64,000 nt of DNA. It comes from Verrucomicrobiota bacterium. Its GTDB lineage: Bacteria; Verrucomicrobiota; Verrucomicrobiia; Chthoniobacterales; Terrimicrobiaceae. The stretch covers positions 1 to 64,000 of the forward strand of contig JAFKMU010000058.1 of the NCBI GenBank assembly GCA_017305195.1. The letters are read 5' to 3'. The position numbers and the translations under genes are program-made. Position 1 is the first letter of the stretch, and every line of letters starts with the position of its first letter. Under the pieces are notes generated by a model, which saw only the letters and a program-made list of their open reading frames with translations, was not told the origin of the DNA and did no database searches. This document shows, one piece after another, positions 9,911 to 14,024 of this stretch.

Positions 9911-9978
9911 GACTTTTTGATCCTCAAAATGGAAAAACCAGTTGCACGTTGGGGAAAAAACCGGGACGACTGAAACGC

Positions 9979-12138
9979 ATGGAAGCGACGAACCTGCTCT
10001 GGGTATTCGCCTGCTCTGCACTGGTGATGTGCATGCAGATCGGCTTCTGCATGCTCGAGTCGGGCCTCGTCCGGTCAAAGAACACGATCAACGTCGCCCT
10101 GAAGAACCTGATCGACTTTGTCGTCGCATCGCTTCTCTTCTGGGCTTTTGCCTACGGGCTGATGTTCGGCACATCGTCCGGCTGGGTCGGCACGACGGAT
10201 TTCTTCTTCTCCCCGGGCGAGCGGTCCAACAATGCCCAGAACGCATTCTTTTTGTTTCAGATGATGTTCTGCGCCACGGCGGCAACCATTGTCTCCGGCG
10301 CGGTGGCGGAGCGCATGCGCTTCGGGGGATACCTCCTGGTGACCGCTCTCATCTCGGGCGTGCTGTATCCCATCGCCGGCGGCTGGGCATGGAATAACGC
10401 CGGGTGGCTGAAGCAGATGGGCTTCGTCGATTTCGCGGGATCGACCGTCGTTCACAGCATGGGCGGCTGGATGGCGCTGGCGGCGGCCATGGTTATCGGG
10501 CCGAGGTTGGGGCGCTTCGACAGCAATCTCCCGCTGGCTAATCCCCACAGCCTGGTCACATCCACGATCGGCGTCCTCGTCCTCTTCGTCGCGTGGCTCG
10601 GGTTCAACGGCGGTAGCACGCTCGCACTCGACCACCGGGTCGGAATGATCCTTGTCAATACGGTGCTCGCCGGATGCGCGGGCTGCCTGAGCGCGATGGG
10701 AGCCGTATGGTATTTTCAAAAGCTGCCTCTCCTGCCGGAAACGCTCAATGGGTGCGTGGCGGGCCTGGTCGCCATCACGGCTGGCTGTCATGCGGTCTCT
10801 CCCAGCTCGGCGGTGATCATTGGCGTCGTGGGCGGGCTCATCAGCTACGGCGCAGTGCACTTGCTCGCTCTCTGGAAGATCGACGATGTGGTGGGCGCCA
10901 GCGCCGCTCACGCCCTGCCCGGAATATGGGGGACGCTGGCCGTGGCCCTCTTTGGCAACCTCGCGCTGCTCGGCACGGGCCTGGGGCGCGCTCAGCAATT
11001 CGGCGTGCAGGCCCTCGGCGCCGTGGTCTTTTTCCTTTGTGCCTTCGGGATTGGCTGGCTCCTCCTCACGGCCATCAACCGCGCCGTCCCGCTCCGCATC
11101 GATGAGGACGGCGAACGCATCGGCCTCAATGTCGCCGAGCATGGAGCGAGCACCGAAATCGTCGACCTGCTCAGCGAGATGTCCCGCCATAGCACGCGGG
11201 GAGACTTTACCACGAGGCTGGACTTTCAGCCCCATACCGAGGTCGGACAGATCGCCTCGGAGTACAACAAGGTCATTGGCAAGGTGAGCGACGAGATGGA
11301 TATGCGCGAGATCTTCGCCCGCCGCCTCGAGCAGGAGCGCGAGGCGCTCGACGCCAGCCAGCGCAAGATCATCAGCAGCATCGAGTATGCCCGCCGCATC
11401 CAGGAGTCCATCCTCCCTCGTCCCGAAACGCTGGAGCGAATGATCCCGGAGCATTTCGTCATCTATCGACCGCGCGATATCGTGTCGGGCGATTTTTACT
11501 GGTGCCTGGCCCGGGAGGAGTCGTTTTATCTCGCCGTGGTCGACTGTACGGGACACGGCGTGCCGGGAGCATTCATGTCGATGATGTCGTTCGTCCTGCT
11601 CCAGCAGATCGTCATCGAGCGCGGCGCCAATGACCCCGCCGACATCCTCTCACGGCTCCACAGTCGCGTCCGGGCCGCGCTCGGCCAGAACTCCCCGGGC
11701 AATGACAACAAGGACGGCATGGACGCTGCGCTCGTACGCATCGACCCCGACAAAATCGTCTTCGCCGGGGCCGGTCTTCCCTTGTGCTGGGTCGACGGTT
11801 CCAGCGGTACGCCGCTCTACGGCGAGATCCGCGGGGATCGTCATGGACTCGGCGGCGGCGCCCACCTGCCGGCCCGGATCCAATACATCCAGCACAAGGT
11901 GCCTCGTACAAAGGATCTCTCGATCTATCTCTTCAGTGACGGCCTCATCCACCAGCCCAATCATCTCAGGCGGCCTTTTGACAAATCCGGCCTGCGCCAC
12001 CTCGCACTCAGCCTGCACGGTACGCCGATGCCGCGACAGGGGGCAGAAATCGCCGCCCAGCTCGATGCCTTCCGAGGAGGAGCCGTCCAGCGGGATGACA
12101 TCACTCTCATCGGCGTAAATGTCTCAGCCGAAACATGA
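9979..12138 (+). CDS. Ammonium transporter fused to HAMP-like and SpoIIE/PP2C phosphatase domains
   Basis: Proposed ammonium sensor-phosphatase, 719 residues from the ATG at 9979. An Amt domain with eleven likely helices fills residues 1-370. By alignment with E. coli AmtB it keeps the Phe gate (F93, F97, F209), W138, D151, S213 and the twin pore histidines H159 and H311. A HAMP-like linker (GDFTTRLDF...EVGQIASEYNKV) lies near 408-438 and a coiled coil near 440-480. The SpoIIE phosphatase core follows, with metal ligands in IVSGDFYW, VVDCTGHGVPGAFMSMM, FSDGL and QRDDITL. It replaces the receptor phosphatase SiaA of Sia operons. No GlnK gene is nearby. The next gene overlaps its stop by 4 bases. 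Confidence 0.93.
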   Translation: MEATNLLWVFACSALVMCMQIGFCMLESGLVRSKNTINVALKNLIDFVVASLLFWAFAYGLMFGTSSGWVGTTDFFFSPGERSNNAQNAFFLFQMMFCATAATIVSGAVAERMRFGGYLLVTALISGVLYPIAGGWAWNNAGWLKQMGFVDFAGSTVVHSMGGWMALAAAMVIGPRLGRFDSNLPLANPHSLVTSTIGVLVLFVAWLGFNGGSTLALDHRVGMILVNTVLAGCAGCLSAMGAVWYFQKLPLLPETLNGCVAGLVAITAGCHAVSPSSAVIIGVVGGLISYGAVHLLALWKIDDVVGASAAHALPGIWGTLAVALFGNLALLGTGLGRAQQFGVQALGAVVFFLCAFGIGWLLLTAINRAVPLRIDEDGERIGLNVAEHGASTEIVDLLSEMSRHSTRGDFTTRLDFQPHTEVGQIASEYNKVIGKVSDEMDMREIFARRLEQEREALDASQRKIISSIEYARRIQESILPRPETLERMIPEHFVIYRPRDIVSGDFYWCLAREESFYLAVVDCTGHGVPGAFMSMMSFVLLQQIVIERGANDPADILSRLHSRVRAALGQNSPGNDNKDGMDAALVRIDPDKIVFAGAGLPLCWVDGSSGTPLYGEIRGDRHGLGGGAHLPARIQYIQHKVPRTKDLSIYLFSDGLIHQPNHLRRPFDKSGLRHLALSLHGTPMPRQGAEIAAQLDAFRGGAVQRDDITLIGVNVSAET

Positions 12139-12635
12139 AGGCACGCCCGACCATGCATCCGTCGTCCCGCGTCGTGCTGGAGATCCGCGGGCCGGTGACC
12201 CAGGAGGAAATCGCCGCCGCCACCAGCCGGCTCATGGCCGCAATCTCCGCCCCGCGACAGGTCGGTCATCTCCTCAAGATCATTTTTGTCGAGATGGCGC
12301 AAAATGTGCTGAAACACTCCAAGAAAACCGCAGCCATTCCAGCCATCATCTCCATCACCGACACCGGGGAATGCTTCACCATTCACAGCCGCAACGCCGC
12401 ATCGTTCACCGCCGCCAGCCGGGCCGCGGAGATCGTTTCCGATACGGGACGACTCACCCGGACCGGGCTCATCCGCGTGCGGCGGTCCGAGCTGCACAAG
12501 CCTCGCCGGTCCGGGTGCGCGGGCATCGGATTGATCGAGATCCAGCGCAAGACCGCTGCTCCGGTCCTCTGCGAGATCACGCCCCTTCCCGACGACGACG
12601 CTCTCGTCGAGATCACAGCAACATTGCGCAAATAA
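12135..12635 (+). CDS. SiaB-like protein kinase (DUF6272)
   Basis: Protein of 166 residues of the SiaB/DUF6272 family, GHKL-type Ser/Thr kinases related to anti-sigma kinases such as SpoIIAB. LLKIIFVEMAQNVLKHSKK resembles the N-box that binds ATP-Mg, and GCAGIGLIEI resembles a G-box. In Pseudomonas, SiaB phosphorylates SiaC and opposes the phosphatase SiaA. Its start overlaps the stop of the Amt-phosphatase gene (ATGA) and the SiaC-like gene follows 3 bases after its stop, so stoichiometric co-expression is likely. The role here is inferred from family and order. Confidence 0.85.
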   Translation: MKARPTMHPSSRVVLEIRGPVTQEEIAAATSRLMAAISAPRQVGHLLKIIFVEMAQNVLKHSKKTAAIPAIISITDTGECFTIHSRNAASFTAASRAAEIVSDTGRLTRTGLIRVRRSELHKPRRSGCAGIGLIEIQRKTAAPVLCEITPLPDDDALVEITATLRK

Positions 12636-12638
12636 CTC

Positions 12639-13022
12639 ATGAGCTCCCTTGAGATTCCTGCCACCGACTATACTCCCCATGTTTTCGAGGATTCGAAAAC
12701 CGGAGTCGTCTGGTTCAAAGGCGAGGCATACCCCGAGAATGCCAGCGCCTACTTTCAGCCCATCATGGAGTGGATGCACTCCCGGATCGCAGAGGCGCGC
12801 CCGATCAAACTGGCCTTCTCCCTCGACTATCTGAATACCAGTTCCACCAAGGCGCTGCTCGATCTCCTCGCCCTCCTGGAAGCCTACCACCAAAAAGGAG
12901 GGAGCGTCTCCGTCATCTGGTACTATCAGGCCGATCTCGAGGTGATGAAGGAAACCGGCGAGGAACTCCTTCATGATTTTTCGCTTCCCCGCTTGCTAGA
13001 ACCCCTCGGGAGATTAACCTAA
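12639..13022 (+). CDS. SiaC-like regulatory phosphoprotein (DUF1987)
   Basis: Small protein of 127 residues with the DUF1987/SiaC fold, an anti-anti-sigma-like switch. The stretch SLDYLNTSSTKALLDLL at about 61-77 holds the phosphorylation site; T67 aligns with Thr68 of Pseudomonas SiaC. The N-terminal VVWFKGEAYPENASAYF is also family-typical. In the known system the dephosphorylated form binds and activates the diguanylate cyclase SiaD. No cyclase is encoded here; the next gene is a histidine kinase. The kinase is therefore the likely partner, by inference. Confidence 0.88.
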   Translation: MSSLEIPATDYTPHVFEDSKTGVVWFKGEAYPENASAYFQPIMEWMHSRIAEARPIKLAFSLDYLNTSSTKALLDLLALLEAYHQKGGSVSVIWYYQADLEVMKETGEELLHDFSLPRLLEPLGRLT

Positions 13023-13025
13023 GCC

Positions 13026-14024
13026 ATGGCAGTTCTGGGAAAACGACCGTCTTTCAGCCATTCCCGTGAAGAGGCCATGCAGGCTTTATTCGCGAAGGAG
13101 TTGTCCGTTCTCAAGGAAGCCGAGGGCGCCTTCGCCCGCCATCCGCCGCCGGAGGAGCTGGAGCACTATTGTGAAATGCTCGCGGAGCATTACCGCTCGA
13201 TGCTCGCGCAAATGATGAAACTCACCAGCATCAGCGATGCGACGCAGCTCCAGCTCAAGCGCACCAAGCTCGAACTCTCCTCCGCCCTCTCCAACGTAGA
13301 GCGCCTCAACCGCAACCTCGAAGCCGTCAGCCAGGAGAAGGACGAGATCCTCGCCCTCGCCGCCCATGATCTCCGCTCTCCCCTCTCGGGCATCCGAGGA
13401 CTCGCCGATCTCATCGCCGAGGAGTCGGCTCCTCAGCCCGGCGAGATTCACTCCTACGCCGAGGAAATCGTCAACGTCGCGGATGACACGCTCGAAATGA
13501 TCCGGGACATCCTGGACATCTATCGCCTCGACGGAGGCGCGCCCGGCGGCCAGCAGTCCGAGAGCATCCGGATCGCAGATCTGCTCACGGAGGCGTCCGC
13601 CATCAGTCGCGCCAACGCCCTGCGCAAGCGCATCACCATGGTGATCGAGTCCGTCAATGCCGACCGTTCCGTCCTCGTCGAGAAGGCTCTCGTCGTGCGC
13701 ATCCTGGAAAACCTGGTGTCGAACGCTCTCAAGTACTCGCCCCATGGCAGCATCGTCACCGTGCGTATCGACATCGAGGACAACCTCCTCAAGATCGCCG
13801 TGCGGGACCAGGGGCCGGGACTGAGCGAGGCGGATCAGGCCAAGCTTTTCAAGAAATTTGCCCGGCTCGCCTCCCGCCCGACTGGCGGAGAATCCTCGAT
13901 CGGCCTGGGCCTCGCCATCGTAGACCGCATCGTCCAGCATCTCGGCGGACGCGTCTGGGTGGAAACGATTCCCGGCGAAGGCGCCACCTTCCGGGTCGAG
14001 CTGCCCGTCACCGCAGTCGGGTAA
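13026..14024 (+). CDS. Soluble sensor histidine kinase
   Basis: Cytoplasmic histidine kinase of 332 residues without membrane segments. A helical N-terminal region with strong coiled-coil character (residues 15-110) leads into HisKA (AAHDLRSPLSGIRGLADLI, phospho-acceptor H114). HATPase_c follows, with LENLVSNALKYSP as N-box, DQGPGLS and GLGLAIVDRIV as G-boxes. No PAS or GAF sensor is visible, so input must come through the N-terminal helices or a bound protein. It begins 3 bases after the SiaC-like stop and ends the four-gene unit. No response regulator gene is adjacent. Confidence 0.9.
   Translation: MAVLGKRPSFSHSREEAMQALFAKELSVLKEAEGAFARHPPPEELEHYCEMLAEHYRSMLAQMMKLTSISDATQLQLKRTKLELSSALSNVERLNRNLEAVSQEKDEILALAAHDLRSPLSGIRGLADLIAEESAPQPGEIHSYAEEIVNVADDTLEMIRDILDIYRLDGGAPGGQQSESIRIADLLTEASAISRANALRKRITMVIESVNADRSVLVEKALVVRILENLVSNALKYSPHGSIVTVRIDIEDNLLKIAVRDQGPGLSEADQAKLFKKFARLASRPTGGESSIGLGLAIVDRIVQHLGGRVWVETIPGEGATFRVELPVTAVG

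Follow-up and report, generated by a model that had tools for sequence, protein, structure and literature searches.

How might an ammonium signal, received by an Amt protein, reach a two-component system in a bacterium? The question is raised by four genes at positions 9979-14024 of a 64,000-nucleotide stretch of Verrucomicrobiota DNA, referred to below as the window (contig JAFKMU010000058.1, positions 1 to 64,000, assembly GCA_017305195.1). Four abutting + strand open reading frames (ORFs) encode an ammonium transporter (Amt) domain fused through a linker to a SpoIIE/PP2C phosphatase domain, a SiaB-like kinase, a SiaC phosphoprotein and a soluble histidine kinase (HK). The genes for the fusion and SiaB overlap by 4 bases, and 3-base gaps separate SiaB from SiaC and SiaC from the HK. 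The fusion ORF (9979-12138, 719 residues) starts with ATG, and an in-frame TTG at 9949 would make it 10 residues longer. A first-pass annotation, made from the letters and their ORFs, had described these four genes with their domains and tight junctions, and ORF calling, Pfam and family models found them as described, so that the observation of the set is confirmed. The same annotation had proposed a partner switch of the Sia type in which an Amt is the sensor and an HK the output, a reading that both sequence and distribution support. We consider an ammonium-gated Sia-type partner switch, with an HK phosphorelay as its output, to be the probable function of the operon (probability about 0.75).

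The features of the locus are as follows.

9979-12138, + strand: Amt-linker-SpoIIE (PP2C) fusion, 719 residues, predicted ammonium sensor-phosphatase and SiaA counterpart (ORF, PF00909, PF07228, SiaA model, PDB match, orthologues)
9997-11151, + strand: Amt domain, residues 7-391 (PF00909, 379 bits; alignment to Ks-Amt5, 6eu6)
11137-11376, + strand: linker EHGASTEI...TEVGQIA.EYN, residues 387-466, common to Amt-HK and Amt-GGDEF fusions
11518-12120, + strand: SpoIIE/PP2C domain, residues 514-714 (PF07228, 63 bits), ligands D505, D522, D582, D654 and D706, the first lying just before the Pfam match
12135-12635, + strand: SiaB-like GHKL Ser/Thr kinase, 166 residues (SiaB family models, PF19788, AlphaFold/Foldseek)
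12639-13022, + strand: SiaC phosphoprotein, 127 residues (PF09345, 114 bits), predicted phosphosite T67 (codon 12837-12839)
13026-14024, + strand: soluble HK, 332 residues, with HisKA at residues 105-171 including H114 and HATPase_c at residues 222-329 (Pfam, 48.5 and 94.8 bits)
13080-13319, + strand: predicted SiaC-docking stalk of the HK, residues 19-98 (blastp, stalk profile, hhalign)
13230-13247, + strand: ISDATQ (I69-S70-D71-A-T-Q74), matching SiaD I81-S82-D83-R84-Y85-Q86 in the alignment with 7e6g_A

The first-pass annotation had made clustering of the four homologues elsewhere a touchstone of its reading, and the same genes in the same order were found in eight Verrucomicrobiota genomes, the window's included. 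Below, L and G numbers denote the loci and genomes compared.

Operon genomes, part 1: the window genome, G001 (L013), G002, which is Spartobacteria bacterium LR76 (L014/L015), and G100 (L012)
Operon genomes, part 2: G184, which is Opitutia UBA4506 (L010/L019), and the metagenome-assembled genomes (MAGs) Rariglobus (L016), Opitutaceae (L017) and Opitutus (L018)

Predicted counterparts of the Sia proteins

The order of sensor-phosphatase, kinase, phosphoprotein and output protein is that of SiaABCD of Pseudomonas aeruginosa, with which the operon shares a PP2C phosphatase, a SiaB-type kinase, the SiaC N-T-S site and an output protein whose N-terminus is stalk-like and carries S-D-x-x-Q. Unlike SiaABCD, it has an Amt receptor part, an HK as output, and one docking motif where SiaD has two.

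The fusion matched the SiaA-PP2C structure 6k4e at 3.9e-36. Excerpts of PMC7647112 (PubMed Central, PMC) give the SiaA metal residues as D457, D474, G477, D600, G601 and D653, with D534 and D604 around a third metal. In the 6k4e alignment, SiaA D457, D474, G477, D534, D600, G601 and D653 correspond to D505, D522, G525, D582, D654, G655 and D706 of the fusion. The metal ligands had been singled out beforehand as a place where the reading could fail; they are kept, and only the equivalent of SiaA D604 differs, being H658.

The window SiaB scored 54.4 bits against PF19788/DUF6272, above the cut-off of 26.6, and its AlphaFold model (mean predicted local distance difference test score, pLDDT, 83.6) had SiaB 6kko_A as its best PDB match in Foldseek (template modelling score 0.79), with SpoIIAB as the next structural neighbour after SiaB. 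Residues E53, N57, N87 and G130-x-G132 are invariant across 13 aligned SiaBs, and three of four operon orthologues passed the cut-off of 85 bits of the NCBIfam model SiaB_fam_kinase (L012, 142; L018, 139; L010, 118). As judged from these comparisons, the protein appears to be a divergent SiaB-type kinase. The window SiaC matched 6kko_C at 1.3e-22, and T67, already proposed as its phosphosite, falls at the place of SiaC T68 in the motif YLNTSS. N-T-S is kept in all seven operon SiaCs aligned, out of eight (L017 was left out of the alignment). The three proteins are predicted to be counterparts of SiaA, SiaB and SiaC but not P. aeruginosa equivalogs, because they score below the equivalog cut-offs: 183 bits vs 700 for the fusion (NF038263, over residues 399-714), 43.5 vs 225 for SiaB (NF038264) and 101 vs 150 for SiaC (NF038265).

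The logic of a PP2C phosphatase, a GHKL kinase and a small substrate is also that of RsbU/RsbW/RsbV. The substrate here differs in matching PF09345 only, with no STAS match in Pfam, and the neighbouring target would be an HK and not a sigma factor, for which the Pfam scan gave no match among the four genes. An Rsb-type switch was rejected on this ground, the substrate being SiaC and not STAS. An anti-phage system was rejected as well, since neither the fusion nor the HK had a PADLOC match at 1e-5.

A predicted docking stalk in the histidine kinase

The window HK has the usual ATP-binding boxes, and HisKA and HATPase_c stand in the place of the GGDEF domain of SiaD, a diguanylate cyclase (DGC). 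According to excerpts of PMC8457831, SiaC T68 inserts between the stalk helices of SiaD and bonds S82 and Q86, SiaC N67 and S69 reach SiaD D83 and Q86, and phosphorylation of T68 blocks binding. The question was therefore whether the HK carries such a stalk. In blastp its N-terminal region matched the stalk of a SiaC-adjacent DGC at 3e-5 in a small set and at 6e-8 as a single pair. A search with one sequence gave nothing useful, an earlier profile that included the hybrid HK of L011 found 7e6g_A weakly (0.023), and a profile of HK stalks only missed SiaD in the PDB; therefore a profile hidden Markov model (HMM) was trained on SiaC neighbours without HisKA. Its nine rows, all from Gammaproteobacteria, comprise DGC, PAS-DGC, HD-GYP and SpoIIE proteins, plus L086, a protein with HATPase_c and a weak match to CheX; the HMM was tested on HKs to avoid circularity.

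The HMM was run on 2114 distinct ORFs, taken from the window and the compared loci, and 34 of these were HK-like by a motif filter. The ten HKs of SiaC gene runs scored E values of 1e-10 to 2.6e-3 (5.2e-4 for the window HK), and the other 24 HK-like ORFs 6.7 or worse; of these 24, 23 came from the Amt-linker search described below, and the last, L011:9301-13635, is close to a SiaC cluster but on the other strand. When the training row L086 was left out, all ten SiaC-run HKs still came first, seven of them at 2.5e-8 to 3.2e-4, with the next HK at 11. No shuffle of the window stalk reached its score with the nine-row HMM (0 of 4956 and 0 of 4981 scored) or without L086 (0 of 4978; 13.5 vs 11.8). 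Aligned with hhalign, the HK stalks matched the SiaC-neighbour stalks at 97.4%, or 97.3% without L086. A mixed profile of HK and non-HK stalks matched SiaD 7e6g_A at 4.3e-14 over residues 23-101, the SiaC-binding stalk, although this marks the family and not the HKs, because the profile includes DGC rows. Run on whole genomes, the nine-protein profile picked out the orthologous HK next to SiaC, as its sole match better than 0.1, in six other SiaC-bearing genomes (G100, G184, G201, G437, G438 and G439).

By these results the docking stalk is a feature of the HK group, while the match for the window HK taken alone is weak. Over the HK, the window protein is 41-46% identical to those of L012, L016, L017 and L018, most of which match the stalk well, and we call its stalk because of the motif, the weak direct match and this orthology taken together. 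In the AlphaFold model of the HK (pLDDT 78.4; predicted template modelling score 0.50) residues 43-133 form a single helix, the stalk being continuous with the H114 helix.

An alternative is that the fusion, SiaB and SiaC form a switch for some other target, a cyclase or a sigma system encoded elsewhere, and that the HK is merely co-transcribed or acts upstream. The known Sia system ends in a DGC (excerpts of PMC8457831), the window HK itself matches the stalk profile only weakly, and the window genome does encode one GGDEF protein, although a single GGDEF match is also in line with an output other than cyclic di-GMP. However, the HK follows SiaC in all eight operon genomes, and the HKs of SiaC gene runs outscore the 24 others for the docking stalk, which makes this alternative unlikely.

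An Amt domain that looks like a sensor

We then asked whether the Amt domain is a sensor or a transporter. That Amt and SpoIIE occur in one protein, as first annotated, was borne out (379 and 63 bits), but the linker, then called HAMP-like, reached only 15.3 bits for HAMP over residues 398-432, below the Pfam cut-off of 25. The sensor Ks-Amt5, the Amt-HK protein of Candidatus Kuenenia stuttgartiensis, binds ammonium through Q24, E31, N47, D50, T51, T109 and T112 (excerpts of PMC5764959), which in the alignment to 6eu6 become Q20, E27, N43, D46, F47, T103 and S106 of the fusion. The two proteins are alike in an Amt that is probably an ammonium sensor, in the Q/E/N/D residues and in a C-terminal cytoplasmic signalling domain; they are unlike in that here the phosphatase is fused, the kinase is separate and would be reached via SiaB and SiaC, and two of seven ligand positions differ.

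Patterns from the fusion linker led to 56 genome loci, and 81 Amts were compared. The Q/E/N/D site is complete in all 48 untruncated fusions (Amt-SpoIIE 8/8, Amt-HK 18/18, Amt-GGDEF 8/8, other tails of 76-523 residues 14/14) and in the four truncated ones, vs 7 of 29 standalone Amts. Output classes were assigned by motif, the other tails taking in L058, whose tail has 76 residues; the comparison covers proteins whose alignment begins by residue 18 and reaches at least residue 330, and the fusions L018 and L020 were among those left out. On this alignment the window Amt domain looks like a sensor, with most of the Ks-Amt5 site kept.

It is quite doubtful that the Amt domain instead works as a transporter, with ammonium as cargo and not as signal, and with the SpoIIE domain regulated in some other way or itself regulating transport. 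The seven pore residues checked, F97, D151, H159, W206, F209, S213 and H311, which include both histidines and the Phe gate, are all kept in the window fusion. Yet the excerpts of PMC5764959 report that Ks-Amt5 keeps its pore residues too and does not translocate ammonium efficiently. In 78 of the 81 Amts all of the pore set F/D/H/W/F/S/H is present, and it is uninformative about sensing. Against transport also stand the distribution of the Q/E/N/D site and the two further Amts of the window genome, both standalone. One of these, L001 (G000:C75:891-2069), has a sensor-type Q/E/N/D site and a short tail only.

Among solved structures, PDB 8qj3/8qpf come nearest to the Amt part (6e-102). They are entered as 'Ammonium transporter' with 644-661 residues, are of the same Amt type and were compared by the Amt part only. 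Amt-GGDEF and Amt-HK fusions among L022-L056 likewise share this Amt type and an EHGASTEI-type linker, and differ in the fused domain.

Occurrence of the operon

The operon is present in at least three families. The five operon genomes from other genera have fusions with 50-61% identity to that of the window. Flanking genes within 3.5 kb are shared by the members of the genus; outside it there is one neighbour match only, between L012 and L017, on different sides. In L018 (Opitutus MAG, 1101-1283) the start of Amt is out of frame with the remainder of the fusion, reflecting an assembly error or a broken gene. Chance fusion was rejected, the fusion being kept in eight genomes.

In a sample of 387 genomes of the phylum SiaC occurred in four, and a SiaA-like phosphatase (E<=1e-20, no more than five candidates per genome scored) in exactly those four (Fisher p 1.1e-9). 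Three of the four carry the operon; in the remaining one, G201 (L011), there are SiaB, SiaC, a hybrid-looking HK and a SpoIIE protein without Amt, as judged by BLAST and by eye. A chance or lineage-limited neighbourhood without functional coupling is very improbable: the arrangement is indeed rare (3 of 387), but it extends over at least three families, with a divergent fusion, tight junctions in the window and changed flanks.

The proposed switch and what weighs against it

What the operon offers by observation is its domain content, the catalytic residues, the conserved gene order, the stalk seen in the HKs as a group and the greater part of the Amt sensor site. From these we infer ammonium as the input, the sign of each step, the binding of SiaC to the HK and a downstream regulator. 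Ammonium bound in the Amt domain would act through the linker to control how active the attached PP2C phosphatase is. SiaC would be phosphorylated at T67 by the SiaB-like kinase and dephosphorylated there by the phosphatase. In its unphosphorylated form SiaC would then dock at I69-S70-D71-x-x-Q74, in the helical stalk at the N-terminus of the HK, and could set the kinase/phosphatase state of the HK, because the stalk helix runs straight into the H114 helix. The HK, in turn, would signal to a response regulator encoded elsewhere.

Several results speak against the switch. At the sensor, two of the seven Ks-Amt5 ligands are altered in the window fusion (T51 is F47, and T112 is S106), and the fused Amts may share the Q/E/N/D site by descent; indeed, common descent accounts for part of the sharing, because most fusions were found via the shared linker. 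The trimeric state of Amt does not fit the dimers formed by SiaA-PP2C and most HKs, and the excerpted literature discusses this mismatch for Ks-Amt5 too. In the phosphatase, SiaA D604, which helps to hold the third metal, is replaced by H658 in the window, the position being D in L012 and E in L010. The window SiaB reached 59.5 bits vs the SiaB_fam_kinase cut-off of 85, and its same-genus orthologue L013, at 65 bits, also stayed below.

The stalk of the window HK is open to similar doubts. Without L086 its E value is 0.068, and those of its two congeners are 0.11 and 0.81. With the nine-protein profile run genome-wide, no match at E<=1 was found in G000, G001 and G002, so that the window HK and its congeners were missed. 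The profile of HK stalks only, searched against PDB, did not find SiaD; designed coiled coils came first, because of which we take coiled-coil likeness to add to the stalk scores. The single docking motif, vs two in SiaD, points the same way. Among the genes flanking the operon within 3.5 kb a motif scan, the only search made there, found no response regulator. Finally, 11 of 29 SiaC loci held out from training (described below) had no stalk at E<1e-8. Since about 1.5 kb after SiaC is present in each, these misses are not due to short loci; in the 11, SiaC may have different partners, or the stalks may be more divergent.

SiaC beside other output proteins

Is the stalk a property of this operon, or of SiaC neighbours in general? 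In Pseudomonadota SiaC gene runs it precedes GGDEF, PAS-GGDEF and HD-GYP domains (the last in L075 and L175), as well as SpoIIE (L091) and a GAF protein that is truncated where the locus ends (L159). It also precedes HisKA kinases, in L152, in L092 together with receiver domains, and probably in L162, where HisKA is below the cut-off. Together with the stalk-bearing HK in the SiaC run of L011, these show that an HK output is not unique to the window operon. The 29 held-out loci (L149-L177) are the best-scoring ones from matches in 67 of 398 genomes, none used in training, and 18 of them had the stalk at E<1e-8.

Since SiaC has stalk-bearing neighbours with DGC, HD-GYP, class III cyclase or HK domains, it may act as a general adaptor, a single threonine-phosphorylation switch that works through a portable docking stalk on DGCs, HD-GYP phosphodiesterases, class III cyclases, phosphatases and HKs; in the operon described here it would join an Amt sensor to a two-component phosphorelay, passing ammonium through Ser/Thr to His-Asp phosphorylation. 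We lean slightly towards this generalisation. A 2021 eLife paper (excerpts of PMC8457831) suggested that SiaC-type proteins modulate adjacent proteins.

Three individual SiaC runs are as follows. In L171 (448-1485, - strand) the protein after SiaC combines the docking stalk with a class III nucleotide cyclase domain. The protein after SiaC in L086 (3251-5407, - strand) has 719 residues, with the stalk, HATPase_c and a sub-threshold CheX match. In L091 (4994-6001, - strand) the protein after SiaC joins the stalk to a second SpoIIE phosphatase, so that two switches may act in cascade.

Relation to published work

Among open-licence PMC papers, searched by title and abstract with subscription papers outside the scope, no paper was found that deals with an Amt fused to a phosphatase or with an HK as a target of SiaC. 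A 2023 review of prokaryotic Amts and an HK review, in the excerpts consulted, name Ks-Amt5 as an Amt with a histidine kinase, and PMC12918730, as far as its excerpts go, deals with another ammonia sensor. We file the Sia-type logic as known and the sensor and output as new.

If the proposed switch is real, it would be an ammonium sensor with a protein phosphatase as its output and a partner switch that targets an HK, turning outside ammonium into a cellular signal. Ser/Thr phosphorylation would be joined to two-component signalling through a docking stalk recognisable in sequence, and the stalk would help to predict SiaC-controlled enzymes in many genomes, taking up the eLife suggestion of neighbour modulation. 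SiaB, SiaC and the HK also make a small soluble set for studying how a docked partner sets a kinase.

Other Amt fusions

Outside Verrucomicrobiota, Amt-SpoIIE proteins were looked for in 398 genomes from the phylum to which Pseudoalteromonas belongs (no more than five candidates per genome scored; matches starting at residues 18-31 not checked for Amt), and only Pseudoalteromonas sp. NBT06-2 gave matches that start with the first residue of the linker. This strain (L020, L021, L075) has two Amt-SpoIIE fusions and three more related phosphatases. At the two fusion loci no SiaB, SiaC or HK was found on the downstream side, and upstream the contigs end near the gene. Another contig of the strain carries one SiaC followed by a stalk-HD-GYP protein.

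In Spirochaetes, L057 (5789-7555) and also L054, L059, L060, L061, L063, L064, L065 and L068 encode an Amt with the signalling linker, the Q/E/N/D site and a C-terminal tail of 181-207 residues, in which no Pfam output domain was found in the three scanned (L057, L059, L065). L070 (5765-8566, Spirochaetales) has Amt fused to Hpt and HATPase_c in a CheA-like arrangement. In L039 (14-3266), from a Nitrospira MAG (MohnsGC08_bin011), a single protein, its start cut by the contig end, reads Amt-linker-GAF-PAS-SpoIIE-HATPase_c_2, and the next gene encodes a protein of 110 residues that by eye resembles a STAS anti-sigma antagonist; the set is apparently an independent ammonium-linked partner switch of the Rsb kind.

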